Part shown: positions 9,385 through 44,859 of the stretch, piece after piece | How positions within the stretch are numbered: the first letter of the stretch is position 1 | Layout of the letters: each line of letters begins with the position of its first letter | NCBI RefSeq assembly: GCF_007859075.1 | Contig: NZ_VOAK01000011.1 | Location: 1,488,001-1,552,000, forward strand | Length of the DNA: 64,000 nucleotides | Direction of reading: 5' to 3' | From: Gemmobacter aquaticus | Lineage (GTDB): Bacteria > Pseudomonadota > Alphaproteobacteria > Rhodobacterales > Rhodobacteraceae | Made by a program: the position numbers and the translations under genes | Notes under the pieces: model-generated | What the model was told of the DNA's origin: nothing | Database searches by the model: none | The model's input: only the letters and a program-made list of their open reading frames with translations

Positions 9385-9413
9385 GGGCAGGTCTCCTTCC
9401 TGTTCAGGTCTGG

Positions 9414-11122: not shown

Positions 11123-11142
11123 CGTCCGACAGATCTGCGTGT

Positions 11143-11379: not shown

Positions 11380-11467
11380 AGGTTTTCGACTTTCTTGATG
11401 ATTTCTGCCATACTGCAGAGTATCCACAGCTGCTGCTTACAATCGTCGCAGGAAATTGCGACGGCGG

Positions 11468-11483
11468 GCTGATCTGGATCAGC
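11468..11483. promoter_or_regulatory. FNR-shaped palindrome between divergent genes
   Basis: GCTGATCTGGATCAGC is an inverted repeat (7-2-7) that fits the FNR/Crp family pattern TGAT-N4-ATCA. It lies 75 bases before the Crp/Fnr gene start and about 90 bases before the divergent 78-residue gene, where autoregulation would be expected. Binding is inferred only. Confidence 0.5.
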
Positions 11484-11557
11484 ATCGCGCCCCCACTTCT
11501 TTCCGAAAATGGGATTGCGGGTGGCAGAAGGCTGTCTGATCCCGCAGAGGGGCGACC

Positions 11558-27500: not shown

Positions 27501-30016
27501 AAGGGCAGCATCCAGCCAACCACGAGGGAGAGAATAGCCAAGGGCGCCAGTAGCGAGCGGCGCAGGTTGTCGAGCATCTTCCATCGCCCGATAGCGGGAA
27601 CGCCGCCCCGTTCATGGCGTCTGTGCCCGCACAACCAGGGCAGCAGCTGCCAGTCTCCCCGCGCCCAACGGTGTTGCCGGCGAATATCGACATCGTACCG
27701 CGCAGGGTAATCCTCGACCACTTCGATGTCGGATGCGAGTGCGGCCCGCGCAAAGGTCCCTTCGAAAAGATCATGGCTCAGCAGGGTATTTTCCGGCACC
27801 CGGCCTTTGAGCGACGCCTCAAAGGCGTCAACGTCATAGATGCCTTTGCCGGTAAACGTGCCTTCGCCGAAAAGGTCCTGATAGATGTCAGAGGCCGCTG
27901 CCGCATATGGCTCAATCCCCCCGGGGCTGGAAAAGAGGCCCTGATAGAGGGAACCGTCTTGCCCGGTTGGCAGAGAGGGGCTGACGCGGGGTTGCAGGAT
28001 GCCGTAACCGCCGGTCACGCGCTGCAGGCTGGCGTCGAAACGTGCGCGGTTCAGGGGATGGGCGATCTTGCCCACCATCTGCGCGACCGTCCCGCGCAGA
28101 AGGCGGGTATCGGCGTCCAATGTGATGACATAGCGGATATCAGCGGGCAGCCGGCCACTGACCACCGCATAGCTGGTGTCGCGCGCCCCGCGCAGCAAAC
28201 GGTTCAGCTCGGCCAGCTTTCCGCGCTTCCGCTCCCACCCCATCCACGCGCCTTCGGCCGGGTTCCACAACCGCCGCCGGTGGAGGAAGTAAAAGCGGTC
28301 ACCATCCTCGCAAGGGTATCGCGCGTTCAGCCGTGCGATGGCATCGGCAGCCGCGTCAACCAGCCCGGCGTCCCCAAGGTCGATCTCGGTCGCCGCATCC
28401 GGCGCGTCTGAAAGCAGCGCGTAATGCACTGCGCCGCCCGCGCTGGAAAGGTGATGAACCTCCAGCCGCTCGATCATCACCGCGATGTCGTCGCTGTCAC
28501 GCAAAAGCACCGGAACAGCGACCAGCGTGCGCAGATGCGGCGGTATCAGCTTTGCTAGTTCAAGGGCCGAGAGGGGTTTGGGCGGAACGGACCGCGTGAT
28601 CAGCGTGTTGACGATTGCCATGCCCAGATCAACGGCAAGCCCGGCCCCGACAACACCCAAGGCCAGCAGCGTGTAAGCGCCTGCCCCTTGTGATGCCATC
28701 ACTGCCAACGCAAGGATCAGGATGGTGCCAGCGACCGCCGCAATTGCGGTCAAGTAGCCGGGCAGACCCAGCCTTGCAGCCATGCGAAACACCGCCACCC
28801 GAGCAGGGGGGCGATAGTCGATCGATGCTTCGAACTGCCTGCGACCGTCGCCGATCAGCCAGTAGCCGGGATCGCGCTCATGCTCGGCCTCACGGCTGTC
28901 GGCCTTGGACAGCGCGGCCTCCACCACCTCAGCCTCGGTGCGGGGCGAATGCTGCGCCAGAACCTCGATCTCTGTCCGGTATCGGTTGCGGGTCGCGAAA
29001 TCCATCGCGGGATACGTGGGGTTGTTGCGCAGGCGGGCATCGACGAGGCTCACCTCCTCGAAGAAATCGGCCCAGTCCATCTCCGACGCAAGTCGCATCG
29101 AAGTCACGATGTTCCGCATGGTGACGTTAGAGGCCCCGAGCCGGGCCTGCGTGTTCGCAATCACATCGTCAAGCGAGGCGTCTTGCCGGGCCAGCCGGTC
29201 TTCAAGCCAGCCCAGAAGCGGCGTGTGCAGGGGATCTACGCCGCGCAGGCGCTTGGCAATCTGGCTTGCAACGATATCCGGAAGCGGTGCCAATTCGTAT
29301 GGCCCGACAACCTGCTGCATCACCGAGAGCGCTGTCTGGCCGGGGATTTGCGTGGCGGCAAGGACGGCGTCGACGATGGTATCCGCTTGCTGGCGCAGCT
29401 CATGTCCCTCGACGATCTGAACAGCCAGCCGCCGCATGTTCTCGACCAGAACAATCCGCAAGGTGATTGCGACGGCCCAAAGTTCGCCAATCTGCAGCGG
29501 CTGGACCTCTTGATAGGCCTTGACGAACCGCGCCAGCACAGGCCCGGACATCAGGCTGTCGGTATGTGCGACATAGGCCCAGGTCAGGCCAAATACCCGT
29601 GGATAGCCCGCAAACGGCCCCTCGGACAGTTTCGGAAGCTGCCGATAGTATCCCGGTGGCAGGTCATCACGGATCTGGCGCAACTGCTGCTCGACAAGGT
29701 GGAAGTTGTCCAGAAGCCACTCGGCGGCGGGAGAGATCACCTGACCCGCCTGCAAGGCCTGCGCGCAGGTGCGGTAGGCCTGCAGAAGGATGTCGGCGTT
29801 CTCATTAACCCTGTGGCGAAGCGGCTGAACCCGAACGGGCTTGCCCGTCGAGATCGGCTGCGCCGAGGCAAGGCTTTGCGCGTGATGCTCAAGCCTTTCC
29901 GTTCCGAAGAGGTCAGACCGAATGGGTGCGCTGTCCTGCCAGACGCCGGGAACAAAGGTCATATGTGCGCCGATCAAGCTTCGCAGATCAGGACGCTGAC
30001 CCTTTCCCCATCTCAC
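21557..30016 (-). CDS. ndvB: Cyclic beta-1,2-glucan synthase (NdvB/ChvB type)
   Basis: A giant inner-membrane enzyme of 2819 residues, the normal NdvB size. It uses UDP-glucose to build a protein-bound linear beta-1,2-glucan, cyclises it and controls its length; the product is osmoregulated in the periplasm. Order: helical N-terminus, membrane helices about 420-475, GT84 domain with LDADTRL near 633-639 and QHRWARGDW near 775, further membrane helices to about 1000, a glucoamylase-like domain, then two GH94/glycosyltransferase-36 modules, with GDWNDGM near 2500 as the phosphorylase acid motif. The GTG at 30016 overlaps the upstream 64-residue gene's stop (GTGA); an ATG at 29962 is the alternative. 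Confidence 0.93.
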   Translation of the reverse strand: MRWGKGQRPDLRSLIGAHMTFVPGVWQDSAPIRSDLFGTERLEHHAQSLASAQPISTGKPVRVQPLRHRVNENADILLQAYRTCAQALQAGQVISPAAEWLLDNFHLVEQQLRQIRDDLPPGYYRQLPKLSEGPFAGYPRVFGLTWAYVAHTDSLMSGPVLARFVKAYQEVQPLQIGELWAVAITLRIVLVENMRRLAVQIVEGHELRQQADTIVDAVLAATQIPGQTALSVMQQVVGPYELAPLPDIVASQIAKRLRGVDPLHTPLLGWLEDRLARQDASLDDVIANTQARLGASNVTMRNIVTSMRLASEMDWADFFEEVSLVDARLRNNPTYPAMDFATRNRYRTEIEVLAQHSPRTEAEVVEAALSKADSREAEHERDPGYWLIGDGRRQFEASIDYRPPARVAVFRMAARLGLPGYLTAIAAVAGTILILALAVMASQGAGAYTLLALGVVGAGLAVDLGMAIVNTLITRSVPPKPLSALELAKLIPPHLRTLVAVPVLLRDSDDIAVMIERLEVHHLSSAGGAVHYALLSDAPDAATEIDLGDAGLVDAAADAIARLNARYPCEDGDRFYFLHRRRLWNPAEGAWMGWERKRGKLAELNRLLRGARDTSYAVVSGRLPADIRYVITLDADTRLLRGTVAQMVGKIAHPLNRARFDASLQRVTGGYGILQPRVSPSLPTGQDGSLYQGLFSSPGGIEPYAAAASDIYQDLFGEGTFTGKGIYDVDAFEASLKGRVPENTLLSHDLFEGTFARAALASDIEVVEDYPARYDVDIRRQHRWARGDWQLLPWLCGHRRHERGGVPAIGRWKMLDNLRRSLLAPLAILSLVVGWMLPLPLAAMWTALTVAMLSLPRFLSLPFDIFPARAGVTMRSHFAAVWSDTLTALGQTAVSLVLLADTAATKIDAILRTAWRLVVSRRHLLEWLTAAQAGSSSRPGLLVQYQSMLPGLSLGLGACGLAWAINPAVWPLPLIFGLLWSAAPALARAISLPRAQKLSAALSAAKAQELRLIARRTWRYFETFVTPEENFLPPDNFQETPRPTIASRTSPTNIGLYLLSTVSAHDMGWIGKRAALQRMQNTLQTIQRMPRFRGHLYNWHDTRDLRVLDPAYVSSVDSGNLAGHLIAVAQACRAWAADPIRDGQAVGQAMADCALLARRSLGSNAEDLALIRALDAIVDAAAGRATPPGLLMGLMDSALALTGDTRSEAKFWIAAMQTALADHIADQADPAETALLAEVENLCRSLAMEMDFQFLLEPDKKLLSIGFSVATNRLDANCYDLLASEARLASLFAIAKGDVETRHWFRLGRPATPIGSGSALISWSGSMFEYLMPSLVMRAPVGSVLEQTTRLVVARQRAYAAALGIPWGISESSYNARDLEMTYQYSNFGVPGLGLKRGLSENRVIAPYATGLAAMIDPVAASNNFAELTNLGALGRYGFYEAVDFTPSRLPANEPRAIVRSFMAHHQGMTITAIANALQNGRLCDHFHAEPMIQGVELLLQERIPRDVASAPPRATEVLVAPVEHHEAPAVRTFENPASEAPTAHLLSNGNYGVMLTPRGEGFSRWRDMAITRWRAEATQPALGSFLFLRDTASGEVWSAGIEPTRVGADRHRAVFCEHHAAFTQHMPRLTTTTEVVVSAEDDAEARRVTLTNSGRRAREIDVTSYAELALAPAAADLAHPAFSKMFVVTDYLPELGVIIATRRRRSPHDPEVWAAHIAVVEGEETAPIQIETDRARFIGRGRSIASAAMTDQPLSGTIGTVLDPVFSIRRRVVVPAGGTTRVTFWTMVADTPDALLDLVDRHRDPTAFARAATLAWTQAQVQLRHVGITHADAAVYQALGGMVMRNDGRMRASPAQIIAGAAPQSALWALGISGDLPIVLVQIDDAEDIAVLHQAIAAHVYWEMRQHAVDLVVLNDRTSSYVQDLQIAIESAVRAARSRPRATGIHAPAKGSIHVLRADLLGANARAQLLSVARVLLVASRGDIGDQMARLARPPVTEPRRLPTPSKASPARDLPQLEFFNGTGGFDRDGREYVTILQGRQTTPAPWINVIANPRFGFQVSSEGCGHVWSENSRENQLTPWSNDPVMDPTGEAIYLHDLDTGQIWTATAQPIRGTGVFVARHGFGYSRFQHDAHGIAADMVQFVPLDETVKVSRLSLRNIGATNRSLSVTAFAEWVLGTARGVTAPYIVTRTDPATGAILAQNTFSTAFPDRIAFADFGPGCTSLTADRLEFIGLGGSLASPAGLRDAPLSGKTGPALDPCAALQRRVTLRAGETVSLTFLIGQADSDANASALVQRMRALDTEALLGAVSDHWSLQLGAVQVRTPDRAMDILLNGWLMYQTLACRIWARAGFYQASGAYGFRDQLQDGMALTFASPAMTRAHLLRAAARQFPEGDVQHWWLPHSGQGVRTHISDDRVWLGYGVGSYVAVSGDASILDEAVPFLQGPTVPPGAHDDFFQPQTSVETATLFEHCARGLDLAIAKTGENGMPLIGTGDWNDGMNRVGEGGKGTSLWLGWLLISTIELMSPLSDTRDPVRAARWRDHAKSVLKAIETHGWDGAWYRRGTYDDGTPLGSVTSDECRIDSIAQSWAVLSGAADPDRARTAMASMTRHLIQPDPGLALLFWPPFDRTPLDPGYIKGYPPGLRENGGQYSHAAMWAILAHAKSGDGDSAHQLFAMLNPINHSLTPEDAERYKVEPYVVAADVYSAPPHAGRGGWTWYTGSAGWMYRAGIEGIIGLTRRGNILCLNPCLPASWPELTLTITLGAASYTVSILNPDLTGRGIRSAILNGMTMDVSHGILSFPVLDGTHHLTVTLGSP

Positions 30017-30377: not shown

Positions 30378-31406
30378 TCACATTGTGTCGACTGAATTCT
30401 TTGGACGAGCCGGACTCATGAACTGATCCGGCGTTTTCACCTTGTGAAGTATAGCGCCGATATCATCCGCAGGGGTATCAAAAAGCGAGGCAGACTTGAG
30501 AACAGCGGCGCATTGCTGCTGAACGATTGCCTTTCGAGCCACCGAAGCGGCGAGCAAGCCATCATGATTGCCGCAGTCATATCGGTTTCCGCTGAATTTG
30601 AAAGCCACGACGGGTATGGCGTCGGCCGACATCGTGATGGCGTCAGTCAACTGAAGCTCGCCTCCCCTTCCGGGTGGCGTCCTCTCCAGCACCTTAAAGA
30701 TCTCCGGATCCAGTATGTAACGTCCTACGGCTGCAATCGATGATGGCGCATGGCCAACTGATGGCTTCTCGACCATTCCAGACACTGGCAAGCAATTGCC
30801 CTTCGGCTGCCCGGAAAGCCGGAAGATGCCATATTGAGAGGCGTCTTCCGGCCTGACCTGCATTGCCGCGACCATGTGGCCGCCGGTGTAGTGAGCTGCC
30901 ATTTCAGCAAGGCAGTTCGGGCCAAATATGATGTCATCGGGAAGAAGCACAGCGAAAGGCCCGGGCAAGGTCGTCTCCCTGCAGCAGAGAACGGCATGGC
31001 CGAGGCCCAGCGGACGATCCTGGGTCACAAAGATCAGTTCCGGGACAGTGGCTCCTGGCCTGCCGATCACCGAAGGGGCACTGTGCCGCGCTTGAAGGAC
31101 GTGACCACTCAGGTAATCTTGAATAGCAATTTTTGCTGTGCTGATGACGATGACAATCCGATCCGCGCCCAGTTCGACCGCCTCCTCGATGGCAAAATCG
31201 AGGACCACGCGATCAAAAATCGGCAAAAGTTCCTTTGCTGTCACTTTCGTCGCGGGCAAGAGCCGCGTGCCCTTCCCCGCAGCGGGGATGATGACCGTTC
31301 TGATAGGCGTGATCGGCACAAGGGCCTCCGAGGCTGGAACAGGGTTCAAAATTTGGCGCGCTGGATTTGCCCAGGCTTCCGTCTTTTGAGTACGGTGTTC
31401 ATTCAT
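30378..31406 (-). CDS. galU: UTP-glucose-1-phosphate uridylyltransferase
   Basis: This makes UDP-glucose from UTP and glucose-1-phosphate. The nucleotide-binding motif GKGTRLLPATK is at 44-54, followed by KELLPIFDRVVLDFAIEEAV, with LPDDIIF near 154 and VEKP in the sugar site. The 342 residues exceed the usual 290-300 because of a 34-residue N-terminal extension that could reflect a later start, though no better ribosome site is evident. It lies 170 bases upstream of the 64-residue gene and ndvB on the same strand, so it supplies their donor substrate and may share a transcript. Confidence 0.92.
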   Translation of the reverse strand: MNEHRTQKTEAWANPARQILNPVPASEALVPITPIRTVIIPAAGKGTRLLPATKVTAKELLPIFDRVVLDFAIEEAVELGADRIVIVISTAKIAIQDYLSGHVLQARHSAPSVIGRPGATVPELIFVTQDRPLGLGHAVLCCRETTLPGPFAVLLPDDIIFGPNCLAEMAAHYTGGHMVAAMQVRPEDASQYGIFRLSGQPKGNCLPVSGMVEKPSVGHAPSSIAAVGRYILDPEIFKVLERTPPGRGGELQLTDAITMSADAIPVVAFKFSGNRYDCGNHDGLLAASVARKAIVQQQCAAVLKSASLFDTPADDIGAILHKVKTPDQFMSPARPKNSVDTM

Positions 31407-31767: not shown

Positions 31768-32835
31768 GTGACGACGACCTATACCATCTCGCTTCTTGGT
31801 TTCGGCGGTGTAAACCGCGCACTGGCCGAACTGATCACGCAGCGCAACGACGAATGGCAGCGCGACTTCGGCTTTCGGCTGGTCATTGTCGGCGTCAGTG
31901 ACCTTGCACTTGGCTCGATCATCGCGCCGGGCGGCATCGATGCGCGGGTCCTGACCCAGACCGACTTTGGCCGCGGCGGCTTTGCCGCGCTTTCGGGCGG
32001 CTCCGCCGATCCCCGCAGTCTTGATGTGGTGCGCGATGCACCTGCCGATATCGTGGTCGAGGCGACATATACCGATGCAATCACGGGCGAGCCTGCGCTG
32101 TCGCATTGCCGCGCCGCTCTGGCAGCCGGACGCCATGTCGTCACAACCAACAAGGGGCCAGTGGCCTTGGCGGCGCGTGCCCTGACAGCAGAGGCCGCCC
32201 GCGAGGGACTTCGTTTCGACTATGAAGGCAGCGTGATGAGCGGGACGCCCGTGCTGCGATTGGCACGTCAGGCGCTGGCCGGATCGGGGATCACCGGGTT
32301 CAAGGGCATCCTGAACGGCACCTCGAACTTCATCCTCGGCCGGATGGAGGCAGGGCTCGACTTCGCGGCCGCATTGTCCGAGGCGCAGGCCGCAGGTTAT
32401 GCCGAGGCTGACCCCACTGCCGATGTCGAGGGACACGATGTGCGACTCAAGGTCGTCATCCTGGCCAATGAACTGCTGGGCGCAGACCTTGCGCCGTCTC
32501 AGGTCGATTGTTCTGGCATTACGGCCCTGACGCCTGCAGACATTGCCACTGTAGTCTCGAATGGTCAGCGCTGGAAGCTGATCGGGTCCGCAAGTCGCCA
32601 GACTGATGGCCGTGTCGAGGCGCGGGTCAGTGCAGAGTGCCTGCCAGTCACGCATCCGTTGACTGGCGTATCCGGCGCGGTGAACGCGGTGACCTTCACC
32701 ACCCAGATGCTGGGCGATGTGACGATCACAGGTCCCGGTGCCGGCCGGATCGAGACAGCCTATGCGCTCCTCTCAGACATCATCGCGCTGCACCGCGACC
32801 GGACTGCCCAGATGCATCAGGAGGCCGCAGAATGA
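31768..32835 (+). CDS. hom: Homoserine dehydrogenase lacking an ACT domain
   Basis: NAD(P)-dependent interconversion of aspartate-4-semialdehyde and homoserine. From the GTG start (GGGGAGG 7 nt upstream) the protein has 355 residues: Rossmann GFGGVN at 11-16, TTNKGPVA at 126-133, [11 protein letters not shown] at 183-193, and the catalytic block [11 protein letters not shown] at 218-228 with its Asp and Lys. The C-terminal ACT domain that gives threonine feedback in the usual 430-residue enzyme is absent. With an aldehyde dehydrogenase overlapping downstream, it may run in the oxidative direction (homoserine to semialdehyde). Confidence 0.88.
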
Positions 32836-34238
32836 CCTTGCTCGCGCCGATAACCGCCCGCCGGCCCGCAATCGCCGTCAGCAGCCCGTACGATGACCAA
32901 TGGCTGGCAGATGTGCCCGAAACCTGCGTGGCCGATGTGCAAGACGTGCTCGAGCGCGCCCGGACCGGTGTCGCAGCGGCACGTGCCCTGCCCCGTCATT
33001 CCCGCGCCAGCATTCTGGACGGCGCAGCGGGCCGGATCGCCGCCGATGCCGAGACCTTCGCCCGGCGCATCACCCTTGAGGCCGGAAAGACCATCCGCCA
33101 GGCCCGAAAAGAGGTTGCACGCTGCGTGAACACGCTACGCCTGTCTGCTGACGAGGCCCGACGGGGCGGCGGGGAAGTGATCCCATTTGACGCCTTTCCG
33201 GGTTCAGAAGCGCGTCAGGGCTGGTTCACGCGCGAACCACTTGGATTGATCGCGGCGATCACACCTTTCAACGATCCGCTCAACCTTGTGGCGCACAAGC
33301 TTGGCCCTGCGATTGCAGGTGGAAATGCGGTTCTGCTCAAACCGTCGGAACTCGCACCACTTTCGGCGCTGGCACTGGTGGAGGCGCTGGTCGGCGCAGG
33401 ACTGCCAGACAGCGTCATCACCCCGGTGGTCGGCGGGGCCGATCTTGGCCGCGCGCTCGTGTCTGCCCGCGACGTGCGGATGGTCAGCTTTACCGGTGGA
33501 TTTCGCACAGGCGAGGCCATCGCCGCCAACGCCGGCCTGAAGAAGCTGGCGATGGACCTGGGCGGGAACGCCCCGGTCATCGTCATGGCCGACGCCGATC
33601 TGGACCGGGCGGTAGCGGCCTGTGTCTCGGGTGCGTTCTGGGCCGCAGGACAGAACTGCGTCGGCACGCAACGCATCCTGATCGCCCGACCGCTCTATGC
33701 CATGTTTCGTGACCGGTTCGTTGCCGCGACCCAGGCAATGGTTACCGGCGATCCGATGAACGAGGGAACCGACATGGGTCCGATGATCTCGGAGGCCAGT
33801 GCCGAACGGATCGCTGCGCGCGTGGAAGATGCGCTTGGCAAGGGCGCGCGTCTGCTGTGTGGACACCGGCGGCAAGGCGCAATCTATGCCCCCACCGTCC
33901 TCGAAGATGTGCCGCATGCCGCCGCGCTCTGGCAGGAAGAGGCTTTTGCACCCGTCGCAATGCTTGAGCCTTTCGACACGTTCGATGAGGCCATTGCCCG
34001 CGCGAATGCTATCGAGTTCAGCCTGCACGCGGGGATCTTCACAGCCAGCCTCGACACTGCGCTGGCGGCGGCCGACCGGATTGATGCAGGGGGCATCATG
34101 ATCAACGACAGTTCGGACTATCGCTTTGATGCCATGCCCTTTGGCGGGTTCAAATATGGCAGCCTCGGCCGTGAGGGCGTGCGTTTCGCGTATGAAGAGA
34201 TGACGCAGCCGCGGACCATCTGCCTGAACCGATCCTGA
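32832..34238 (+). CDS. NAD(P)-dependent aldehyde dehydrogenase
   Basis: A 468-residue ALDH superfamily enzyme of the succinate-semialdehyde/lactaldehyde branch. Visible: [24 protein letters not shown] at 168-173, SFTGG at 219-223, and catalytic Cys276 in GQNCVGTQ. The residue that is normally the general base Glu (ELGG) is Asp243 here (MDLGGNAP), an unusual change. Its ATG overlaps the homoserine dehydrogenase stop (ATGA), so the two are coupled. The likely substrate is the product of that enzyme, aspartate-4-semialdehyde, giving aspartate; this is inference, and phosphorylating Asd activity is not implied by the family. Confidence 0.88.
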
Positions 34239-34354
34239 CGCGCAAAATCCGCGCAAAACCGCATATCTGCGCCGAAGTCCGCAAATACTTGCGGACATTA
34301 CGCAGACGTCCCGCACCGATGCGGCATATCCTGACGACCAGAAAGGAGTGCCGC

Positions 34355-34558
34355 ATGCCCATCACGATCGAGATCATAGGACCGGCGGATCAGGCCGCCA
34401 GCCTTGCGAACGCGCTGGAGGGTTCGGGGACAATTCGCCCCCTCGCCTGCGACATCGCAAGGCCCGGACCCGAGTGGGCCGAACCGCCGCATTTCCTTTT
34501 GTTCCTGCGCACAGAGGCGCAGACCCCGGTTCCGGCTGAAAAAGAGGAGAGGCCATGA
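34355..34558 (+). CDS. 67-residue unknown protein in the homoserine operon
   Basis: MPITIEIIGPADQAASLANALEG begins a small alpha/beta-looking protein, ending in a Pro/Glu-rich tail. AAAGGAG lies 6 nt before the ATG, and its stop overlaps the threonine synthase start (ATGA), so it is a genuine translated member of the operon. No family is recognised; it could be a small ligand-binding or enzyme-associated protein. Confidence 0.65.
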   Translation: MPITIEIIGPADQAASLANALEGSGTIRPLACDIARPGPEWAEPPHFLLFLRTEAQTPVPAEKEERP

Positions 34559-35943
34559 TCTTTACCAGCACGCGCGGTCAGGGCGGCCGTGTCCCGCTGC
34601 GCTCGCTTCTGACACGCGGCACGGCGGCGGATAGCGGGCTCTTCATGCCCGAGCATTGGCCCGAGGCAGACCTGCAACGCGCGCTCGCCCTTGGCACCTT
34701 GCCCTGGGCACAGCTAGTCGCCGGGTTGATCGCGCTCTTTGATGACCGGCCCGAGGCCGCGCCACAAACCCTCGCGGCAGTCACACGGGCCTATGCCCGC
34801 TTCGCCTCGCCTGACGCGCCACCGGTCAGGATGATGACCGGGCAGTGCCATGCGCTCGAATTGTTCCACGGCCCGACGCTCGCCTTCAAGGACTATGCGT
34901 TGATGCCGCTCGCAGAGCTGATCTCGGATGAGATGCGAAGCAGCGGCGGCGAGGCGACCATCCTCTGTGCAACGTCAGGCGACACTGGCGCGGCCACCGC
35001 CGCCGCCTTTGCCGGTCGTCCGGCCACCCGCGCGGCAATCCTGTTCCCGCGTGGCAGGGTCTCGCCGGTTCAGCAGCGCCAGATCACCACGACCGGGGCC
35101 GCAAACATCGCACCCCTTCGCATCGAAGGCGATTTCGATGCCTGTCAGGCACTGGTCAAGCAACTTTACGCCAGCCCCGAGGCCCAGCACGATGGATTCA
35201 CGGCCGTCAACTCGATCAACTTCGTCCGCATCCTGATCCAGACAGCCTACTACCTGTCCACCACCGCCCGGCTGTGGACCGAAAAGGCCGAGCCGGTGAA
35301 CTTCTTTGTTCCGACGGGCAACTTCGGCAATGTGCTGGCAGGTCACTTCGCCCGGCTGCTTGGGGCGCCCATCGGCAAGATGGTGGTGTGTTCGAATGAG
35401 AACGATGTCCTTCCGCGCCTGTTTGAAACCGGGCGGATGGAACGGCAGCCGACACAGGCAACGCTCTCTCCCAGCATGGACATTCAGGTCTCGAGCAACT
35501 TTGAACGGATGCTCTACCTGATTGCGAACGGCGATTGCGACCGGGTGAACCATTTGCAGCGGGAACTGGAAGACACAGGCAGCTACGTCCTGGCTGCCCC
35601 CGAGCTCATGGCGTTGCGCAGGGATTTCGTGGCATTTCGGGTCTCCCGCGAAGGTGCGCTGGCCGCCATCACCGAGGTCTGGCATCGCCACCGGAGGGTC
35701 GTCTGCCCGCATGGCGCCACCGCCTGGGCTGCGGCACTTGCACTGGACCTTCCGGGTCAGTCGGTCGTGGTCGAGACCGCGCATCCCGCAAAGTTCCCGG
35801 AGGCCTTCCAGTCGCTCGGGCAGATCCAGCCAACCGAGCCCGAAGTCCTGTCTGCATTGCGCGGCAGGGCAGAGAGGTGGATCAATGCCCCCAATGACGC
35901 CGCCCGGCTGCGCGCCCTGATCGCCTCGCTGCCGCACGGCTAG
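34555..35943 (+). CDS. thrC: Threonine synthase
   Basis: A PLP enzyme that converts O-phosphohomoserine to threonine. It is 462 residues long, the long proteobacterial/yeast-like type. Lys112 in HGPTLAFKDYALMP is the PLP lysine; CATSGDTGAATAAAFAGR near 140 binds the cofactor phosphate, and FFVPTGNFGNVLAGHFA near 245 is a typical landmark. No homoserine kinase is nearby, so either kinase is encoded elsewhere or the enzyme acts on another gamma-substituted homoserine. It is the last gene of the unit and is followed by a strong terminator. Confidence 0.9.
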   Translation: MIFTSTRGQGGRVPLRSLLTRGTAADSGLFMPEHWPEADLQRALALGTLPWAQLVAGLIALFDDRPEAAPQTLAAVTRAYARFASPDAPPVRMMTGQCHALELFHGPTLAFKDYALMPLAELISDEMRSSGGEATILCATSGDTGAATAAAFAGRPATRAAILFPRGRVSPVQQRQITTTGAANIAPLRIEGDFDACQALVKQLYASPEAQHDGFTAVNSINFVRILIQTAYYLSTTARLWTEKAEPVNFFVPTGNFGNVLAGHFARLLGAPIGKMVVCSNENDVLPRLFETGRMERQPTQATLSPSMDIQVSSNFERMLYLIANGDCDRVNHLQRELEDTGSYVLAAPELMALRRDFVAFRVSREGALAAITEVWHRHRRVVCPHGATAWAAALALDLPGQSVVVETAHPAKFPEAFQSLGQIQPTEPEVLSALRGRAERWINAPNDAARLRALIASLPHG

Positions 35944-35965
35944 ATCGCGCGAGCCGGGACGACAC

Positions 35966-35995
35966 AAGGGCCGCCCGTCGGGCGGCCCTTTTTTC
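35966..35995 (+). terminator. Rho-independent terminator after thrC
   Basis: AAGGGCCGCCC and GGGCGGCCCTT form an 11-bp stem (35966-35976 with 35980-35990) with a three-base GTC loop, followed by a T run through 35994. It separates the rightward thrC unit from the leftward Lrp unit, whose stop codon it touches. Confidence 0.9.
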
Positions 35996-36431
35996 AGCCC
36001 CGGCGATATGGCGACAGGGCAAAGGAGGTCAGCGTATCGCGCACGCCGGGCATGCTGGCGATCTCTTGCCAGATCGCGCGGATACGATCGGCCGCGCTTG
36101 CCTCAAGCCGCAGGACGATGTCGAACTCGCCGCTCATGACATCACAGCTGATGACTTCGGGGATACGCCGCAATGCGACAAGCACGTCGGCGCCGCGCAG
36201 GCGGTCCTGCCGATAGACGAAGATCAGCGCCACCATCGGGCCGGCCTGATCCCGGCCAGCACTTCGGCGGATCGTGTAGCCCGCGATCTCACCGTCGCGT
36301 TCCAGCCGTTCAATGCGGGCGCGCAGCGCATTGCGCGACAGGTGGATCTGCCCGGCAAGTTCCGCATGCGGAATCCGGGCATTGCGCTCAAGCGCATCCA
36401 GAATGCGCAGGTCAATCTGATCGCGCGGCAT
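35994..36431 (-). CDS. Lrp/AsnC family regulator (1)
   Basis: A 145-residue amino-acid-sensing regulator: helix-turn-helix in residues 5-45 (IDLRILDALERNARIPHAELAGQIHLSRNALRARIERLE) and a C-terminal RAM/ACT-like domain with PEVISCDVMSGEFDIVLRLEA. It lies 9 bases after the PLP enzyme stop on the same strand, the last gene of the importer unit. It probably senses the imported amino acid or its product; a second, different Lrp gene lies at the head of the unit. Confidence 0.9.
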   Translation of the reverse strand: MPRDQIDLRILDALERNARIPHAELAGQIHLSRNALRARIERLERDGEIAGYTIRRSAGRDQAGPMVALIFVYRQDRLRGADVLVALRRIPEVISCDVMSGEFDIVLRLEASAADRIRAIWQEIASMPGVRDTLTSFALSPYRRG

Positions 36432-36440
36432 GGCGCGCGA

Positions 36441-37676
36441 TCAGCCTGACAAGGCCTGGTCGAGGTCGCGGATCAGATCCTCAGGCGCCTCAAGCCCGAC
36501 CGAAAGGCGAAACCCCCCGTCCCCCGCATAGGTGCGGTAGTCAGCGAGTTGCTCGGGGGTCAGCCTGTAGGTGCCGCCGGTCATTTCAGCCGTATCGAGC
36601 AGGGTGACGATGCTGCGCTGATGACCAAGCGAGAAGGCGTAGTGCATCACCCGCAGTCGGGCCGCCAGCTGGCGCGCCATGAAGGGTGGATCGGCGGTCT
36701 GGAAGAAGATCATCCCGCCGGGCAGGTCCATCTGCCGCTCGGCCAGCTGGCGCTGCGGATGCGACGCAAGCCCCGGATAGATCACGCGGGTAACCCCCGA
36801 ATGGGTTTCAAGAAACTCGGCCAGACGTTGGGCGGTAGCATTGATCTGGCGCATCCTGGGGAACAGCGTGTCGATCCCGCGCAGGATGAGCCAGGCATTC
36901 ATCGCTGGCATGGCCGCGCCCAGATAGACCCCCGCCCGACCCCGCATCGGGGCGATCAGCGCCTGACGGCCCACAACGATCCCGCCAAGCGCGTCGCCGT
37001 GACCGTTGATGAACTTTGTCAGCGAATGCACCACCAGATCCACACCCAGTGACAAGGGTCGTGTCGAGACCGGCGTTGCCAGCGTGCTATCGACCGAAAC
37101 CAGCGCGCCATGGGCATGCGCGATGCGTGCCACCTCGGCCAGATCGGTCAGTCGCAGGATGGGGTTGCAGGGGCTCTCGCAATGAACAAGCCGGGTGTTG
37201 GGCCGCAATGCCGCAGCCAACGCACCGGGGACGGATAGATTGACGGGCGTCACCTCAATGCCGAAATCCGGCAGGATGCTGCGTGCAAGCTCGGCCGCGC
37301 CGGCATAGGTCACGTCGCCGATGATCAGATGGTCACCCTGCTTCAGAACCGTCAGAAACATCCCCGCGATCGCGGCAACACCAGTGGCAAAAGCCAAAGC
37401 GTCCTCGCCCCCTTCCAGTGCCGCCATGCGCGTTTCAAGCGCCCGCACGGTTGGATTCAGCCACCGGGCATAGGTGAAGGGTTCTTGCGAAATGTCTGCA
37501 ATACCGGCCGCCGAAAAGGCACCCTCTCCGGGGATCACCTGGTTGTTGACCGACATTGAAATGTTGGGCTGGATCGCCCGGGTCGCCGGGTCGATGATAA
37601 GTCCGGCATCCAGGGCCAGAGTCTCGGGCAGCGCCGATTGAGGCAGCCCGGACGAAGGGGCCTTCAGGCAATTCAT
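36441..37676 (-). CDS. PLP-dependent trans-sulfuration-type gamma-lyase/synthase
   Basis: A 411-residue Cys/Met-metabolism PLP enzyme. It shows YARWLNPTVRALETRMAALEG at 69-89 (the Y.R..NPT motif), Asp196 in VDSTLATP and PLP-binding Lys221 in SLTKFINGHGDALGG. The usual C-terminal SLGG.ESL substrate motif is replaced by SLGHQRSIV, so the substrate is probably not cystathionine or methionine. Its neighbours (ABC amino acid importer upstream, homoserine dehydrogenase opposite) suggest a gamma-lyase that frees homoserine, with canavanine-gamma-lyase as one precedent. The ATG at 37676 has AAAGG 6 nt upstream; an ATG at 37706 overlapping the permease stop (TGATG) is possible. Confidence 0.85.
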   Translation of the reverse strand: MNCLKAPSSGLPQSALPETLALDAGLIIDPATRAIQPNISMSVNNQVIPGEGAFSAAGIADISQEPFTYARWLNPTVRALETRMAALEGGEDALAFATGVAAIAGMFLTVLKQGDHLIIGDVTYAGAAELARSILPDFGIEVTPVNLSVPGALAAALRPNTRLVHCESPCNPILRLTDLAEVARIAHAHGALVSVDSTLATPVSTRPLSLGVDLVVHSLTKFINGHGDALGGIVVGRQALIAPMRGRAGVYLGAAMPAMNAWLILRGIDTLFPRMRQINATAQRLAEFLETHSGVTRVIYPGLASHPQRQLAERQMDLPGGMIFFQTADPPFMARQLAARLRVMHYAFSLGHQRSIVTLLDTAEMTGGTYRLTPEQLADYRTYAGDGGFRLSVGLEAPEDLIRDLDQALSG

Positions 37677-37705
37677 GTGCAACCTTTCAGAATAGATGGG
37701 CGCCA

Positions 37706-38395
37706 TCAGCGCCGGATCGGAACCTGCGCCTCGATCCGGCGGAAGATGCGATTGATCAGAATGGCAACCACGACAAAGAACAGACTGACCACCAGCAGCG
37801 GCTCGTAGACCAGCAGGGTATCCTGCCGCACCTTGTAGGCGACCGCGTAGAGATCCATCACCGTTACGCTGAAGGCCAGCGGCGTGGCCTTCAACTGCAG
37901 CACGACCCCGCCTGCGATCACCGGCAGCGCCGTACGCAACGCGCGCGGCAACCAGATGCGGCGGGTCACCATCCCCGGGGGCATGCCGAAGGCCCGCGCG
38001 GCCTCGATCTCTCCCCTCGGGACAGAGCGGAGCGCGCCGCGGATGACCTCCGCCTCATAGGCGGCGTAATTGAGCGTGAAGCTGAGCGCCGCGAAGAAGA
38101 AGCCCTGGCTCAACAGTGGCCAAAGGATGCTGCCACGCAGGCCCGGCACCATCGGAAGCAGCGAGCCGACCCCGTAGTAAAGCAGCCAAAGCTGTACCAG
38201 AAGCGGCGTGCCACGCAGAAAGGTACAGTAGCCATCTGCCAGCCGCGCCAGAACCCGGTTCTGCCCCAGCCGAAGAAGCGCGATCCCGATGGCCAGCGGA
38301 AAGCCAAGACCCACCGATATGACCAGCAGAAGCAGCGTCTGCCCCGCCCCCCAGAGAAGCAGGTCCGCATAGGTCACGATCCATCCAAAGTTCAT
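37706..38395 (-). CDS. Amino acid ABC transporter permease (HisM/GlnP type, 2)
   Basis: A 229-residue inner-membrane permease of the polar amino acid (PAAT) family with about five helices. The EAA loop that docks the ATPase reads EIEAARAFGMPPGMVTRRIWLPRA near 130-153. It pairs with the permease encoded just upstream. The gene lies 7 bases after that gene and touches the PLP enzyme gene, so all are in one operon. Confidence 0.9.
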   Translation of the reverse strand: MNFGWIVTYADLLLWGAGQTLLLLVISVGLGFPLAIGIALLRLGQNRVLARLADGYCTFLRGTPLLVQLWLLYYGVGSLLPMVPGLRGSILWPLLSQGFFFAALSFTLNYAAYEAEVIRGALRSVPRGEIEAARAFGMPPGMVTRRIWLPRALRTALPVIAGGVVLQLKATPLAFSVTVMDLYAVAYKVRQDTLLVYEPLLVVSLFFVVVAILINRIFRRIEAQVPIRR

Positions 38396-38402
38396 AGCGA
38401 CC

Positions 38403-39125
38403 TCATGCGGATTGCGGCAGACCGCGGCGGTACCGCCGGTCCATCAGTCGAAACACCTGGTTCGACATCAGCGTGATGGCGAGGTAGATGAACGAGGCCG
38501 CAAGGAAGAAAAGGAAGTACTGCTTGGTGTTGCCAGCAGCGATCCGTGTCGCAAGGGCAAGCTCTTGATATCCCACCACTGCGATCAGGGCGCTGTCCTT
38601 GGTGACATTGAGCCAAAGATTGGCAAGGCCAGGCAAAGCATTGGGCATGAGCGCCGGAAACACCACGCGACGCAGGCGCAACAGCGGCGGCATGCCCATC
38701 GCCTTGGCCGCCTCGATCTGCCCGACGGGGATTGCAAGGATCGCGCCGCGCAGAACTTCCGTCATGTAGGCCCCTTGCACGATCCCCAGGACCAGCACGG
38801 CAGCCAGAAAGCCATTCACCTCGACCGGTTCCAGTCCGAACATCGCCAGAAGCCGATTTAGGCTGTCCGTACCGGCGTAGTAGAGCCCCACGATCAGGAT
38901 CAACTCGGGAATGGCACGTACAGCCGTGGTGTAGACATCCAGCGCCGCGACCAACGGCCGCTGGCCTGAAAGCTTGCCCAGTGCCCCCGCGAGACCAATC
39001 CCGAATCCGGCGGCATAGGCGCCGGCCGATATGGCCAGCGTGGCCAACGCACCTTCCAGAAGCACGCCCCCCCATCCGGGAGGCGTGAGCGCGAGCAGGG
39101 CGAGTTTCTCCATCAACCCCGACAT
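38403..39125 (-). CDS. Amino acid ABC transporter permease (HisQ type, 1)
   Basis: A 240-residue PAAT permease: several hydrophobic helices and the EAA loop QIEAAKAMGMPPLLRLRRVVFPALMP near 150-175. The ATG at 39125 lies 4 bases after the binding-protein stop; a longer open frame to 39260 would run into that gene and is rejected. It should form a heterodimer with the neighbouring permease. Confidence 0.88.
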   Translation of the reverse strand: MSGLMEKLALLALTPPGWGGVLLEGALATLAISAGAYAAGFGIGLAGALGKLSGQRPLVAALDVYTTAVRAIPELILIVGLYYAGTDSLNRLLAMFGLEPVEVNGFLAAVLVLGIVQGAYMTEVLRGAILAIPVGQIEAAKAMGMPPLLRLRRVVFPALMPNALPGLANLWLNVTKDSALIAVVGYQELALATRIAAGNTKQYFLFFLAASFIYLAITLMSNQVFRLMDRRYRRGLPQSA

Positions 39126-39129
39126 GGGA

Positions 39130-39897
39130 TCAGCCACCAAAGGGGTCAAAGGTGAAATACTTGGCCGAGATCTCCTGGTAAATTCCCTTGGCGCGCAGGG
39201 CCGAAATTGCGCCATCGATGCGGGCAGCCAGCTCGGTCTCGCCTTTGCGCAGCCCTCCACCGATCCCCTCGCCCAGAATGGCCGGATCGTCCGCGACGTT
39301 ACCTTTGTCTTCGCAGCAGTCGGCGCCGTATTCGGTCTTGAGGAATTCCATCAGTGGAATGGAGTCACCAAAGACATAGTCGATGCGACCGGCGGCAAGA
39401 TCCTGAAAGGCCTCGTCCAGCGTGGCATAGGTACGTTCGGTCGCCACATCCTTGTAATGGGTCGCGTAGTAGGCGGACTGGATGGTCGAGACCTGAATCC
39501 CGAGCGTCTTGCCCGCCACATCCTCTGGCGTCGTGCCCGTGACCCCGTCCTTCGCCCCTATCAGCTTGGCGGGGGTCTTGTAGTAGCTCGACGTGAAGTC
39601 GATGGTCTTGCGCCGCTCGTCTGTTATCGACATCGACGACCAGATCACGTCGAACCGACCCGAAGTCAGGCCGGGGATCAGCCCATCCCACGACATCTCG
39701 ACGATCGAGCAGCTTTCCTTCAGCTCGGCGCAGACCGCCTCCATCAGCTCGATTTCCCAGCCGACCCATGTGCCGCTGGAATCCTTGGTGAAGAAAGGTG
39801 GATAGGCTTCGTTCATGATGCCAAAGCGGATCTCGGCCTCGGCCGAACCGGCAGCAAGAAGCAGCGCCCCGGCAAGGGCGGCGGTCAATCTGGTCAT
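39130..39897 (-). CDS. Periplasmic amino acid-binding protein
   Basis: A 255-residue SBP family 3 protein with a signal peptide (MTRLTAALAGALLLAAGSAEA) and the cluster signature region GWEIELMEAVCAELKESC near 46-63. The ligand-arginine region is atypical: VIWSSMSITDERRKTIDFTSSYY near 79-101 has SSMSIT.ER, the typical polar amino acid site. It selects the substrate of the importer; residues fit a basic or polar amino acid but the exact ligand cannot be read. Confidence 0.9.
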   Translation of the reverse strand: MTRLTAALAGALLLAAGSAEAEIRFGIMNEAYPPFFTKDSSGTWVGWEIELMEAVCAELKESCSIVEMSWDGLIPGLTSGRFDVIWSSMSITDERRKTIDFTSSYYKTPAKLIGAKDGVTGTTPEDVAGKTLGIQVSTIQSAYYATHYKDVATERTYATLDEAFQDLAAGRIDYVFGDSIPLMEFLKTEYGADCCEDKGNVADDPAILGEGIGGGLRKGETELAARIDGAISALRAKGIYQEISAKYFTFDPFGG

Positions 39898-39926
39898 CTT
39901 GTTTCCCTGTGTTTATGTTTCTTGGT

Positions 39927-40709
39927 TCAGGCGGCCAGTGCGCCGGTGAAATCGCGCACCCGTGCAGAGCTAGGCACCCCGAATATCTGCTCGGGCGGCC
40001 CCTCCTCCTCCACCTGGCCCTTGTGGAGGAACATCACATGCGAGGACACATCACGTGCGAAACGCATCTCGTGCGTGACCAGCAGCATGGTCCGGCCCTC
40101 TTCGGCCAGATCCCGTATAACCTTGAGAACTTCACCGACCAGTTCGGGGTCAAGCGCCGAGGTCGGTTCGTCAAACAGCATCACCGCCGGATCGACGCAC
40201 AGCGCCCGCGCAATCGAGGCGCGCTGCTGTTGGCCACCAGACATGAAGGCCGGATAGGCGTGGCGTTTTTCATAGAGCCCGACTTTGGCGAGAAGCGCCT
40301 CGGCCTGCTCCACGGCCTCGGCCCGGCTACGCTTTTGAACATGGACCGGCGCCTCGATCACGTTTTCCAGCACGGTCATATGCGGCCAGAGGTTGAAGTT
40401 CTGGAACACCATGCCAAGACCGGCGCGCACACGCTCGATCTGCCGCATATCGGCCGGATGGGCACGACCGTCACGACCGGGCTTCAGCCGTATCGTCTCG
40501 CCATTGATGACGAAGCTGCCGCTATCGGGGATCTCAAGAAAGTTGATGCAACGCAGAAAGGTGCTTTTGCCTGATCCCGACGATCCGATCAGCGAGATCA
40601 CATCGCCCCGCTTAGCCCTGAGCGAGATCCCCTTCAGTACCTCGTGCGGGCCATAGCTCTTGTGTACCCCCTTGATATCGAGTGGCAGCAGCGCTTCCTG
40701 TCCGGCCAT
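39927..40709 (-). CDS. Amino acid ABC transporter ATP-binding protein (HisP/GlnQ type)
   Basis: A 260-residue ABC ATPase with Walker A GSSGSGKST at 42-50, Q-loop VFQNFNLWPHMTVLENV, signature MSGGQQQRASIARAL (Met instead of Leu) and Walker B VMLFDEPTSALDPE. The insertion before the Q-loop (KPGRDGRAHPADMRQIERVR) is typical of HisP-like members. It heads the importer genes, 29 bases before the binding protein gene. Confidence 0.92.
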   Translation of the reverse strand: MAGQEALLPLDIKGVHKSYGPHEVLKGISLRAKRGDVISLIGSSGSGKSTFLRCINFLEIPDSGSFVINGETIRLKPGRDGRAHPADMRQIERVRAGLGMVFQNFNLWPHMTVLENVIEAPVHVQKRSRAEAVEQAEALLAKVGLYEKRHAYPAFMSGGQQQRASIARALCVDPAVMLFDEPTSALDPELVGEVLKVIRDLAEEGRTMLLVTHEMRFARDVSSHVMFLHKGQVEEEGPPEQIFGVPSSARVRDFTGALAA

Positions 40710-40839
40710 CCTGTCCTCATGCCCCTGATCCTGTCAGGGTTCGAGACTAAGGATAGCCCATGCCGGAGGACTGCAGATTTGATACAACATGCGCCGAAAT
40801 CCGTCATCAATGACCCATCATGCGCCGCCATACCGCGCG

Positions 40840-41313
40840 TCAGTCGATTTCTTCTACGTCCGGCACCGGGACAAAAAGGCCGCTCTTGATGCTTTTGAGC
40901 ACGACATTGGTGTTGATCCTGCGCACCTGACTATTCTCGCGCATGATCTGGGCGGCGATGTCATCGTATTCGGTTACATCGCGGGCCGTGATGATCGCGA
41001 TCAGATCGACCGATCCGGTGACGTAGAACAACTGCTGGATATTGTCGTTGCGGGCTGCCCAGTTTCGCAGTCGTTGCAGCGTGTCGTAATTGTCCCGCTC
41101 AATCTCCAGCCCTGCGATGAAGGTCATGCCGCCGCCGACCTCCTTCATATCGACGACTGCAATCTCCGAGGTGATGACCCGGTCCTGCCGCAGTTGGCGC
41201 AGCCGCCGCTGCACCGCCGAGGCCGAAAGCCCGACCTCTTCGGCGATAGCCTCGGCCTTTAACTGACAGTTCCTTTGCACAATTCGCAGGATCTTGCGGT
41301 CAAGATTGTCCAT
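40840..41313 (-). CDS. Lrp/AsnC family regulator (2)
   Basis: A 157-residue Lrp-type protein: MDNLDRKILRIVQRNCQLKAEAIAEEVGLSASAVQRRLRQL is the HTH half, and VVDMKEVGGGMTFIAGLEIERD with GSVDLIAIITARDVTEYDDI the effector half. It lies 130 bases upstream of the ATPase gene on the same strand, in position to control the importer operon. Its sequence differs clearly from the Lrp at the other end, so the two probably sense different ligands. Confidence 0.9.
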   Translation of the reverse strand: MDNLDRKILRIVQRNCQLKAEAIAEEVGLSASAVQRRLRQLRQDRVITSEIAVVDMKEVGGGMTFIAGLEIERDNYDTLQRLRNWAARNDNIQQLFYVTGSVDLIAIITARDVTEYDDIAAQIMRENSQVRRINTNVVLKSIKSGLFVPVPDVEEID

Positions 41314-41971: not shown

Positions 41972-42202
41972 GCAACCTCTGGGCACGCGCCGCCGACTGC
42001 TGGTCTCCCTTGCATCGCGGCACCAGACCCGACGGCGCCGCCCGCAGCGGCACCTGCGACAGCCGCGTATCGCACGGCGCGTCCTGAGAGAACCCGCTGC
42101 AGACCCTGCACCTGTCTTACCGCGTCGGATTCCCCGCGACCCGCCGTCAGGCGAATGGCGGCTTCCGCATCATCATCACACCCTGATCTTCAATCTAATT
42201 GA

Positions 42203-42214
42203 CGTACCTCAAAC
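42203..42214. promoter_or_regulatory. Half operator before the LacI-family gene
   Basis: CGTACCTCAAAC repeats the right arm of the palindrome at 43325-43350 (11 bases of CGTACCTCAAA shared). It lies 36 bases upstream of the LacI-type gene's ATG, where an autoregulatory site would be expected. Confidence 0.4.
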
Positions 42215-42249
42215 GCTGCGCCATACCTGACCCTCAACCGGGAGGACAG

Positions 42250-43284
42250 ATGGCCCGCCCCACCGTCAACGACATAGCGCGCGAGGCAGGGGTCAGTCTG
42301 GCCACCGTTGACCGTGTGCTCAACGCCCGCCCCGGCGTAAGGGAAAGCACCGTCACTGCGGTGCAAGAGGCGATCACGCGGCTCGGCTATGTTCGCGACA
42401 TCGCCGCCGCCAATCTGGCGCGCCAGCGGCAATACCGCCTTGTTGCCGCCCTGCCCGATTCCGGCAGCCAGTATGTCGAAACGCTGGCCTGCGCCCTGCA
42501 CGACGCCGCCCAGACCGCCGCTGTCGCCCGAACCGAATTGCAGATCCTGCGCTACCCGGCAGAGGATCCGCACAGTCTGGCCGCCCTGTTGCACGCCCTC
42601 CCCCCGGCTGAAACCGAGGGCGTCGCCCTGATGGCCCCGGAAACCCCTGTCCTGCGCGACGCCGTCAAAGCCTTGCGTGAAAAGGGGATTCCGGTAATCG
42701 CCATCGGGTCAGACCTGCCCAATACCGACCGCGATCACTTCGTTGGTATCGACAGCCGCGCCGCAGGCCGCACGGCAGGCGTGCTGATGGGTCGCTTTGT
42801 CGGGCGCGGGCCGGGGCAGATTCTGGCGCTGGCAGAATCGATGCAACTCCGCGACGCCATCGAACGCCGCCATGGATTTGACGCCGTAATTCAGGCCGAG
42901 TTTCCATGGCTCGAGGTGCTGCCCACGCTAGAAACCCATGGCTCGGACGCTACCCTGCGCGCCGTGGTGACCGAACGCCTGCGCCATGCCACCGGCTTGC
43001 GCGGCATCTATGTCCTTGGCAGCGGCCACCGCGCGCTGGCCGCCACTCTGGCCGATCTGGGCCTGACCGGGCGATTCACCATCATCGGGCACGAGTTGAC
43101 GCCCCACACCCGCCGCGCCTTGCAAGGCGGCCAGATCGACGCAGTCATCACCCAGAATCTAGGCCATCTCGCCCGTTCCGCCCTGCGCGTCCTGCGCGCC
43201 AAGGCCGATCGCGCCCCGATCGACGCCGCACAGGAACAGCTGCGCATCGAAATCCTGATCCGCGAAAACCTTCCAGATCAATAA
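42250..43284 (+). CDS. LacI family transcriptional regulator
   Basis: A 344-residue repressor-type protein: the LacI HTH and hinge region (ARPTVNDIAREAGVSLATVDRVLNARPGVRESTVTAVQEAI; positions 2-43) and a periplasmic-binding-protein-like effector domain. GGGAGG lies 4 nt before the ATG. It is encoded directly upstream of a sugar ABC importer operon on the same strand, and a perfect palindrome that suits a LacI protein lies between them. The inducer is probably the imported ketose or polyol or its phosphate. Confidence 0.92.
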   Translation: MARPTVNDIAREAGVSLATVDRVLNARPGVRESTVTAVQEAITRLGYVRDIAAANLARQRQYRLVAALPDSGSQYVETLACALHDAAQTAAVARTELQILRYPAEDPHSLAALLHALPPAETEGVALMAPETPVLRDAVKALREKGIPVIAIGSDLPNTDRDHFVGIDSRAAGRTAGVLMGRFVGRGPGQILALAESMQLRDAIERRHGFDAVIQAEFPWLEVLPTLETHGSDATLRAVVTERLRHATGLRGIYVLGSGHRALAATLADLGLTGRFTIIGHELTPHTRRALQGGQIDAVITQNLGHLARSALRVLRAKADRAPIDAAQEQLRIEILIRENLPDQ

Positions 43285-43324
43285 CTTACGATATACCACC
43301 TCCAAGCCGCGCTGCCCCTGGAAG

Positions 43325-43350
43325 ATTTTTGAGGTACGCACCTCAAAAAT
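43325..43350. promoter_or_regulatory. Probable LacI-family operator
   Basis: ATTTTTGAGGT and ACCTCAAAAAT form a perfect 11-base inverted repeat around ACGC. It sits 116 bases before the binding-protein ATG and 41 bases after the regulator's stop. Symmetry, size and place suit a LacI-type operator; a half site is found before the regulator gene. Confidence 0.7.
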
Positions 43351-43465
43351 TAGTAGACAAACGCCCCGGCATGCCGCAAGGTCAGCTCAGCCAGAAGGCC
43401 CGGGCGCAGGTTTCCGCCAAGGGCACGCCGCCGTAACTAGGCATTCCAAATCCGTGGGAGGATTC

Positions 43466-44788: not shown

Positions 44789-44859
44789 CTTGCCCGCCTG
44801 AACGCGGCCCCCCCCATGACGGGGGCCGCACCCCGCCCCGCCTGCGGCCCTGAGGTTCC

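Follow-up and report, generated by a model that had tools for sequence, protein, structure and literature searches.

Which amino acid is broken down by the gene cluster at positions 31768 to 41313 of the 64,000-nucleotide stretch of Gemmobacter aquaticus DNA that we analyzed (contig NZ_VOAK01000011.1, positions 1,488,001 to 1,552,000; referred to here as the window)? The cluster consists of two operons that converge tail to tail across a gap of 50 nt. The plus-strand operon encodes a homoserine dehydrogenase (HSD), an aldehyde dehydrogenase (ALDH), a 67-amino-acid (67-aa) protein and a threonine synthase, and the minus-strand operon encodes an Lrp regulator (Lrp B), the ATPase, the periplasmic solute-binding protein (SBP) and two permeases of an ABC importer, a pyridoxal phosphate (PLP) enzyme and a second regulator (Lrp A), each in this order. 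A preliminary description of the window had recognized this arrangement, which translation and family models confirmed for all eleven genes (Table 1), and had proposed canavanine as the substrate. We conclude that the cluster very probably imports and breaks down an amino acid that yields homoserine. From sequence comparisons, we lean toward S-methylmethionine (SMM) as that amino acid, which would be cleaved to dimethyl sulfide and homoserine.

The clue to the substrate came from the genes surrounding relatives of the PLP enzyme. The query alignment used to find these relatives combined rhizobial with Rhodobacteraceae-type sequences, and partner genes were counted by tblastn with reference proteins around the best 80 of 387 relatives confirmed in named genomes; the 80 loci are related to one another and some lie on short contigs, and the counts do not represent independent events. 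Of these loci, 44 had a homocysteine S-methyltransferase gene no more than 10 kb from the PLP gene (37 had it within 400 nt), with 41 of the 44 on the PLP strand. By a rough estimate, assuming one or two such genes per ∼4-Mb genome, chance would place one within 10 kb in about 1 of 80 loci; one or two matches were indeed detected in each of the eight genomes searched. Although the relatedness of the loci keeps this excess from being a tally of independent events, strand and order vary between lineages. The linked methyltransferases fall into two subfamilies. Seven of them, from beta-proteobacterial loci (L079 to L081, L089, L091, L093, and L094), are 53 to 55% identical to E. coli MmuM, and their genes are next to the PLP gene in six loci and separated from it by one gene in the seventh. 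Three tested genes of this type scored 399 to 438 bits on the NCBIfam model matched by MmuM itself (cut-off, 215), compared with 110 to 128 bits for four members of the other subfamily. E. coli MmuM is described as using SMM (PMC3228920, PMC12366255).

The importers pointed in the same direction. On R. etli CFN42 plasmid p42c and in R. lentis, the order is Lrp-ATPase-SBP-permeases-methyltransferase, with no PLP gene, and the R. etli SBP is 62% identical to that of the window. A second type of importer (SBP, ∼30% identical) stands beside both the PLP and the methyltransferase genes in three loci of Paenirhodobacter and Pseudotabrizicola (L038, L039, and L112) and beside the methyltransferase gene alone in G361, a genome of the same genus as the window's. 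Since importers thus serve either the methyltransferase or the window-type PLP enzyme, these arrangements suggest a single molecule that can donate a methyl group to homocysteine and can also give rise to homoserine. SMM, a sulfonium amino acid of plants, has both of these roles in known metabolism and is a cation. It therefore fits as the imported substrate, as the SBP family also suggests: the best solved relatives of the window SBP are binders of cationic amino acids, of histidine, and of lysine, arginine and ornithine, which bears out the amino acid import foreseen in the preliminary description.

No ACT domain was found in the window HSD with Pfam, and the protein scored 442 bits on NCBIfam model PRK06270 (cut-off, 373). 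It is 73% identical to the G361 copy, 64% identical to the canavanine-cluster and R. acidisoli copies and 63% identical to the copy on Rhizobium plasmid pRL8. The ALDH gene start overlaps the HSD gene by 4 nt, so that the coupling of an ACT-less HSD to an ALDH, the mark of a homoserine catabolic module, was recovered as first described. An R. leguminosarum enzyme encoded near a homoserine cluster has been assigned to a family strongly favoring homoserine oxidation (PMC10228743); in strain 3841 its orthologue is encoded on pRL8 and is likely the copy compared here. The ALDH was under the cut-off of all NCBIfam equivalogs among the matches listed (best 25 of 44). It is nevertheless 64 to 67% identical to ALDHs adjoining the same HSD type in three other clusters, and oxidation of aspartate semialdehyde would be the simplest reading of its function.

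As far as synteny tells, the two operons do appear to form one system. Of 394 family genomes, just 2 carry this HSD type (E ≤ 1e-90), those of the window and G361, and each has the HSD gene no more than 4 kb from the PLP gene, a proximity beyond what chance would give; G361 shows the colinear order Lrp-ATPase-SBP-permeases-PLP-Lrp-HSD-ALDH. In a sample of the genus, the HSD was detected in 3 of 11 genomes and the PLP enzyme in 2 of 11. The third genome with the HSD, G395, lacks the PLP gene and shows the order HSD-ALDH-67aa-(shortened thrC). Plasmids of both R. acidisoli and R. phaseoli also carry the same set together, accompanied by aspartate ammonia-lyase and homoserine-kinase-like genes; the R. 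acidisoli copies were checked by family models, the kinase-like gene falling under the cut-off of its model. The co-conservation of the operons, on which the preliminary description had staked its proposal, was thus found both within the genus and on rhizobial plasmids. Among the 80 loci, 50 had a homologue of Lrp B (>44% identity) near the PLP gene, 45 had a related ABC importer and 4 had the aspartate ammonia-lyase; the HSD and ALDH were colinear with the PLP gene in 7, of which 5 had the methyltransferase as well.

Three further loci touch on this set of genes. In G395 (L121, about 7094-12188), a Transp_cyt_pur-family permease gene precedes the HSD gene and perhaps encodes a homoserine importer. 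On the A. larrymoorei Ti plasmid (NZ_CP072169.1, 167902-171684), the HSD match is split in two, no gene is annotated there and no ALDH follows. The homoserine module thus looks decayed in this plasmid, which still has the genes for the PLP enzyme, the kinase-like protein, Lrp and the methyltransferase. A Vibrio relative of the PLP enzyme (57%) stands with an Lrp gene and another importer, and in Vibrio ruber (L096, 2436-10754) a gene for cobalamin-independent methionine synthase follows ∼4 kb further on.

In the pathway that we infer, including its substrate, homoserine product, direction of flux and regulation, the ABC importer would bring SMM into the cell, where the PLP enzyme would expel dimethyl sulfide from the gamma carbon, water taking its place to give homoserine. 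The ACT-less HSD would then convert homoserine to aspartate semialdehyde, and the ALDH would convert the latter to aspartate, for use as carbon and nitrogen; this route from gamma-cleavage to aspartate had been outlined before, and the data presented here support it. The threonine synthase, together with a homoserine kinase that we assume to be encoded elsewhere, could divert some of the homoserine to threonine, and such a drain is plausible. The two Lrp proteins would be the likely sensors. A bacterial activity cleaving SMM to dimethyl sulfide and homoserine was reportedly observed in work of the 1960s; among the literature matches listed (open-licence papers, mostly abstracts), none described a bacterial gene for this cleavage. 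Methionine gamma-lyases (MGLs) are described as able to release dimethyl sulfide from SMM (PMC10729969), and a review states that liver and kidney hydrolyze SMM, with dimethyl sulfide and homoserine as the products (PMC13209565).

Several observations weigh against this proposal. The cluster in the window has no homocysteine S-methyltransferase gene next to it; the best homologue in the genome is encoded elsewhere and shares just 39% identity, and distant copies of this kind were present in all eight genomes searched. The related enzyme Bmt is described as using dimethylsulfoniopropionate (DMSP) and betaine (PMC12366255), so that membership in the superfamily alone leaves the methyl donor unfixed. 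The HSD and the ALDH were each found near the PLP gene in only 7 of the 80 loci, and 25 loci, some of them on short contigs, had no partner above 44% identity; the window's three nearest neighbors in the tree (L034, L036, and L037) are among these. Within the family, the PLP enzyme was detected in 6 of 295 genomes (E ≤ 1e-120), and a comparison of the other five loci, one of them a 4.7-kb contig, with the 11 window proteins yielded only distant ALDHs (31%) in two. The PLP enzyme can thus also occur alone, which speaks against a single system. The threonine synthase and the 67-aa protein were found in none of the 80 loci and fit no demonstrated role. Finally, the window importer is related to that of canavanine clusters (59% identity between the SBPs).

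Another setting was seen in six Rhodobacteraceae-type loci (L076, L077, L083, L099, L101, and L103). Here a relative of the PLP enzyme (60 to 67% identity) is encoded in a gene order that recurs but seems unrelated, and genes for the importer, Lrp, methyltransferase and HSD are all missing.

The 25 loci lacking partners would suit an enzyme of more conventional function, namely, an MGL converting methionine or SMM to 2-oxobutyrate, or a sulfhydrylase converting acylhomoserines to homocysteine, with the HSD and ALDH forming a separate homoserine module. Homocysteine supply would likewise account for the methyltransferase neighborhood, the closest solved structures are those of MGLs, and the superfamily is described as catalytically broad (PMC10729969). 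We nevertheless consider this explanation unlikely. The window PLP enzyme fell far under the cut-offs of the named NCBIfam models among the matches listed, reaching 299.5 bits on the O-succinylhomoserine sulfhydrylase model TIGR01325 (cut-off, 510) and 297.4 bits on the MGL model TIGR01328 (cut-off, 550). In contrast, both reference MGLs passed TIGR01328, and the genome's other PLP-superfamily enzyme, 40% identical to that of the window, passed the sulfhydrylase model with 542 bits. In a maximum likelihood tree of 53 of the 100 rows collected, the window enzyme belonged to a clade of its own (support, 100/99), whose sister group (99/97) was the canavanine-type clade (100/100), and the MGL, MetZ, MetB and MetC rows lay apart from it; the MetB, MetC, MetZ and Salmonella MGL rows carried long-branch flags. 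The preliminary description had singled out a grouping with biosynthetic enzymes as decisive against its proposal, and no such grouping with the biosynthetic reference rows was seen. Trees joining the window clade to MGL or to MetZ with the canavanine type excluded were rejected (p-AU, the P value of the approximately unbiased test, 0.00006 and 0.0003, respectively), and the co-conserved HSD and ALDH and, in some clusters, aspartate ammonia-lyase point instead to homoserine breakdown. An identity as biosynthetic sulfhydrylase or MGL is thus disfavored by both model cut-offs and tree. A cysteine typical of MGLs was dropped as a discriminator, one of the two reference enzymes lacking it in the alignment.

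Canavanine, a plant toxin that would be imported and split to hydroxyguanidine and homoserine, the latter being oxidized to aspartate, appeared a still poorer candidate. Canavanine-gamma-lyase was reportedly described by Hauth 2022. Such enzymes are described as yielding homoserine, and in Pseudomonas canavaninivorans and Rhizobium leguminosarum CtdA, a canavanyl-tRNA deacylase and B3/4 protein, is described as encoded ahead of the canavanine operon (PMC10018355). The published lyase sequences lie outside our tree, in which linkage to CtdA stands in for the canavanine type. CtdA served as a landmark for canavanine clusters in A. pusense, M. huakuii, R. leguminosarum and S. alkalisoli and was detected in all four; a fifth locus, L134, in which no CtdA but an SMR-like gene was found, groups with them in the tree. 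The four CtdA clusters share the importer family, HSD (64% identity), ALDH (64%) and Lrp (60%) with the window, besides a sister-clade PLP enzyme and the homoserine intermediate, and additionally contain genes for CtdA, an SMR transporter, a DapA-like protein, aspartate ammonia-lyase and a homoserine-kinase-like protein. However, the window PLP enzyme is only 42% identical to the canavanine-type enzyme (A. pusense copy), and forcing it into the canavanine clade cost 101 log-likelihood units and was rejected (p-AU, 0.0001). CtdA was present in 4 and SMR in all 5 of the canavanine-type loci, versus 0 of 80 each near relatives of the window PLP enzyme, and the methyltransferase partnering those relatives was found in none of the 5. 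The sole B3/4 match in the window's genome lies on a different contig, in an 818-codon frame that we take to encode the beta subunit of phenylalanyl-tRNA synthetase. At 23 columns separating 31 methyltransferase-linked SBPs, selected as being 60% or more identical to the window SBP, from the 4 CtdA-linked ones, the window is of the first type at 19 and of the second at 3; at 14 columns picked from this set, the R. etli SBP shares 10 with the window and the canavanine type shares 1. In the binding pocket, the aspartate that contacts the side chain in the Lys/Arg/Orn-binding protein reads Asn in both cluster types. Clade position, the lack of CtdA and SMR linkage and the SBP column type argue against canavanine as the leading candidate, and SMM fits better than the earlier suggestion.

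Two irregularities were noted in these clusters. In two canavanine clusters (L031, 3009-4211; L130, 2907-4157), a second PLP enzyme of the superfamily (36 to 37%) is encoded near CtdA on the opposite strand and falls outside both clades. In two window-type clusters (L028, about 15294; L066, about 8934), a DapA-like gene 76 to 77% identical to the canavanine-cluster one lies between the importer and PLP genes, hinting at exchange of genes between the cluster types.

The same pathway logic applied to another gamma-substituted cation (such as S-adenosylmethionine, the selenium analogue of SMM or some amino acid beyond those considered here) is improbable to us: the substrate is deduced solely from neighbors and importer class, and the methyltransferase superfamily is described as taking several donors (PMC12366255), but SMM is the established donor of MmuM, whose type adjoins or nearly adjoins the PLP gene in the beta-proteobacterial loci.

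The SMM cleavage proposed here also differs from the known systems it resembles. E. coli mmuPM salvage resembles the beta-proteobacterial relatives in its MmuM-type methyltransferase but makes methionine, uses a permease instead of an ABC importer and has no PLP enzyme, and the window lacks MmuM beside its cluster. The pRL8 homoserine cluster shares homoserine oxidation with the window (HSD, 63%; ALDH, 66%; Lrp, 61% identical) but takes up homoserine itself, with no window-clade PLP gene in the stretch read. In yeast, the PLP enzyme Hsu1 is implicated in dimethyl sulfide release from SMM, and HSU1 shares a chromosome segment with the SMM permease and methyltransferase genes MMP1 and MHT1; unlike the window, this is a eukaryotic system in which the HSU1 reaction and product are not established, and the section describing HSU1 mentions no homoserine-oxidation module (PMC10729969).

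We regard as evenly poised the broader proposition that the window holds the first gene for a dedicated bacterial SMM gamma-lyase producing homoserine and dimethyl sulfide, that different gamma-lyases, for SMM or canavanine, plug into one shared importer and homoserine-oxidation module, and that root-associated rhizobia and their relatives might thereby produce dimethyl sulfide from a common plant metabolite with no DMSP intermediate. If so, a gene would be assigned to an activity already known biochemically, and dimethyl sulfide near plant roots, as well as in other habitats, might have a further source that bypasses DMSP. Amino acid breakdown would then diversify by swapping one gamma-lyase before a common module, and annotators would have reason to avoid canavanine, methionine or cystathionine enzyme names here.

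Table 1. Genes of the two convergent operons in the window
Feature	Position	Strand	Basis
ACT-less HSD, predicted homoserine-oxidizing type	31768..32835	+	GTG start; NAD_binding_3 and Homoserine_dh domains (Pfam); PRK06270
ALDH, putative aspartate-semialdehyde oxidizer	32832..34238	+	Pfam Aldedh
67-aa protein	34355..34558	+	4-nt overlap with thrC start; G395 homologue in same place
Threonine synthase family protein (genome's second copy)	34555..35943	+	TIGR00260, 243 bits (cut-off, 167)
Lrp/AsnC regulator A	35994..36431	-	Pfam
PLP enzyme, proposed SMM gamma-lyase	36441..37706	-	Pfam Cys_Met_Meta_PP; own clade in tree
ABC permease 1	37706..38395	-	Pfam BPD_transp_1
ABC permease 2	38403..39125	-	Pfam BPD_transp_1; start taken at M46 of listed frame
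SBP, cationic amino acid type	39130..39897	-	SBP_bac_3
ABC ATPase	39927..40709	-	Pfam ABC_tran
Lrp/AsnC regulator B	40840..41313	-	NCBIfam Lrp-type models

The threonine synthase and the 67-aa protein occupy the place of the aspartate ammonia-lyase and kinase-like genes of the sister clusters. The cluster-type threonine synthase was found in 1 of 390 genomes of the order at E ≤ 1e-130, the window's own, and its matches on plasmids were all under 60% identity (best, about 40%). The 67-aa protein matched no Pfam or NCBIfam model. Its frame is probably a real gene, since it overlaps thrC by 4 nt and has a homologue at the equivalent position in G395, 46% identical over 56 aa. Of 394 other genomes sampled from the family, 11 yielded weak partial matches only (E, 0.0003 to 0.01), probably by chance.

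Lrp A is 60 to 65% identical to the Lrp proteins of the canavanine, pRL8 homoserine and R. acidisoli clusters. The start of permease 2 was corrected to residue M46, most likely the true one, because the longer frame runs into the binding-protein gene. The host genome (3.99 Mb, 27 contigs) also carries a second HSD, and its other threonine synthase lies at G000:C1:575313. Between 28000 and 46000, no Rfam match was obtained at the gathering score and hence no RNA regulator was found. Before the cluster, a 2819-aa frame (21557-30016, minus strand), which we take to resemble cyclic beta-1,2-glucan synthase, is adjoined by a nucleotidyltransferase gene (30378-31406). After the cluster (42199-45804, plus strand), genes for a LacI-family regulator and a sugar-type solute-binding protein and a permease-like frame follow one another, probably as a separate sugar uptake operon.

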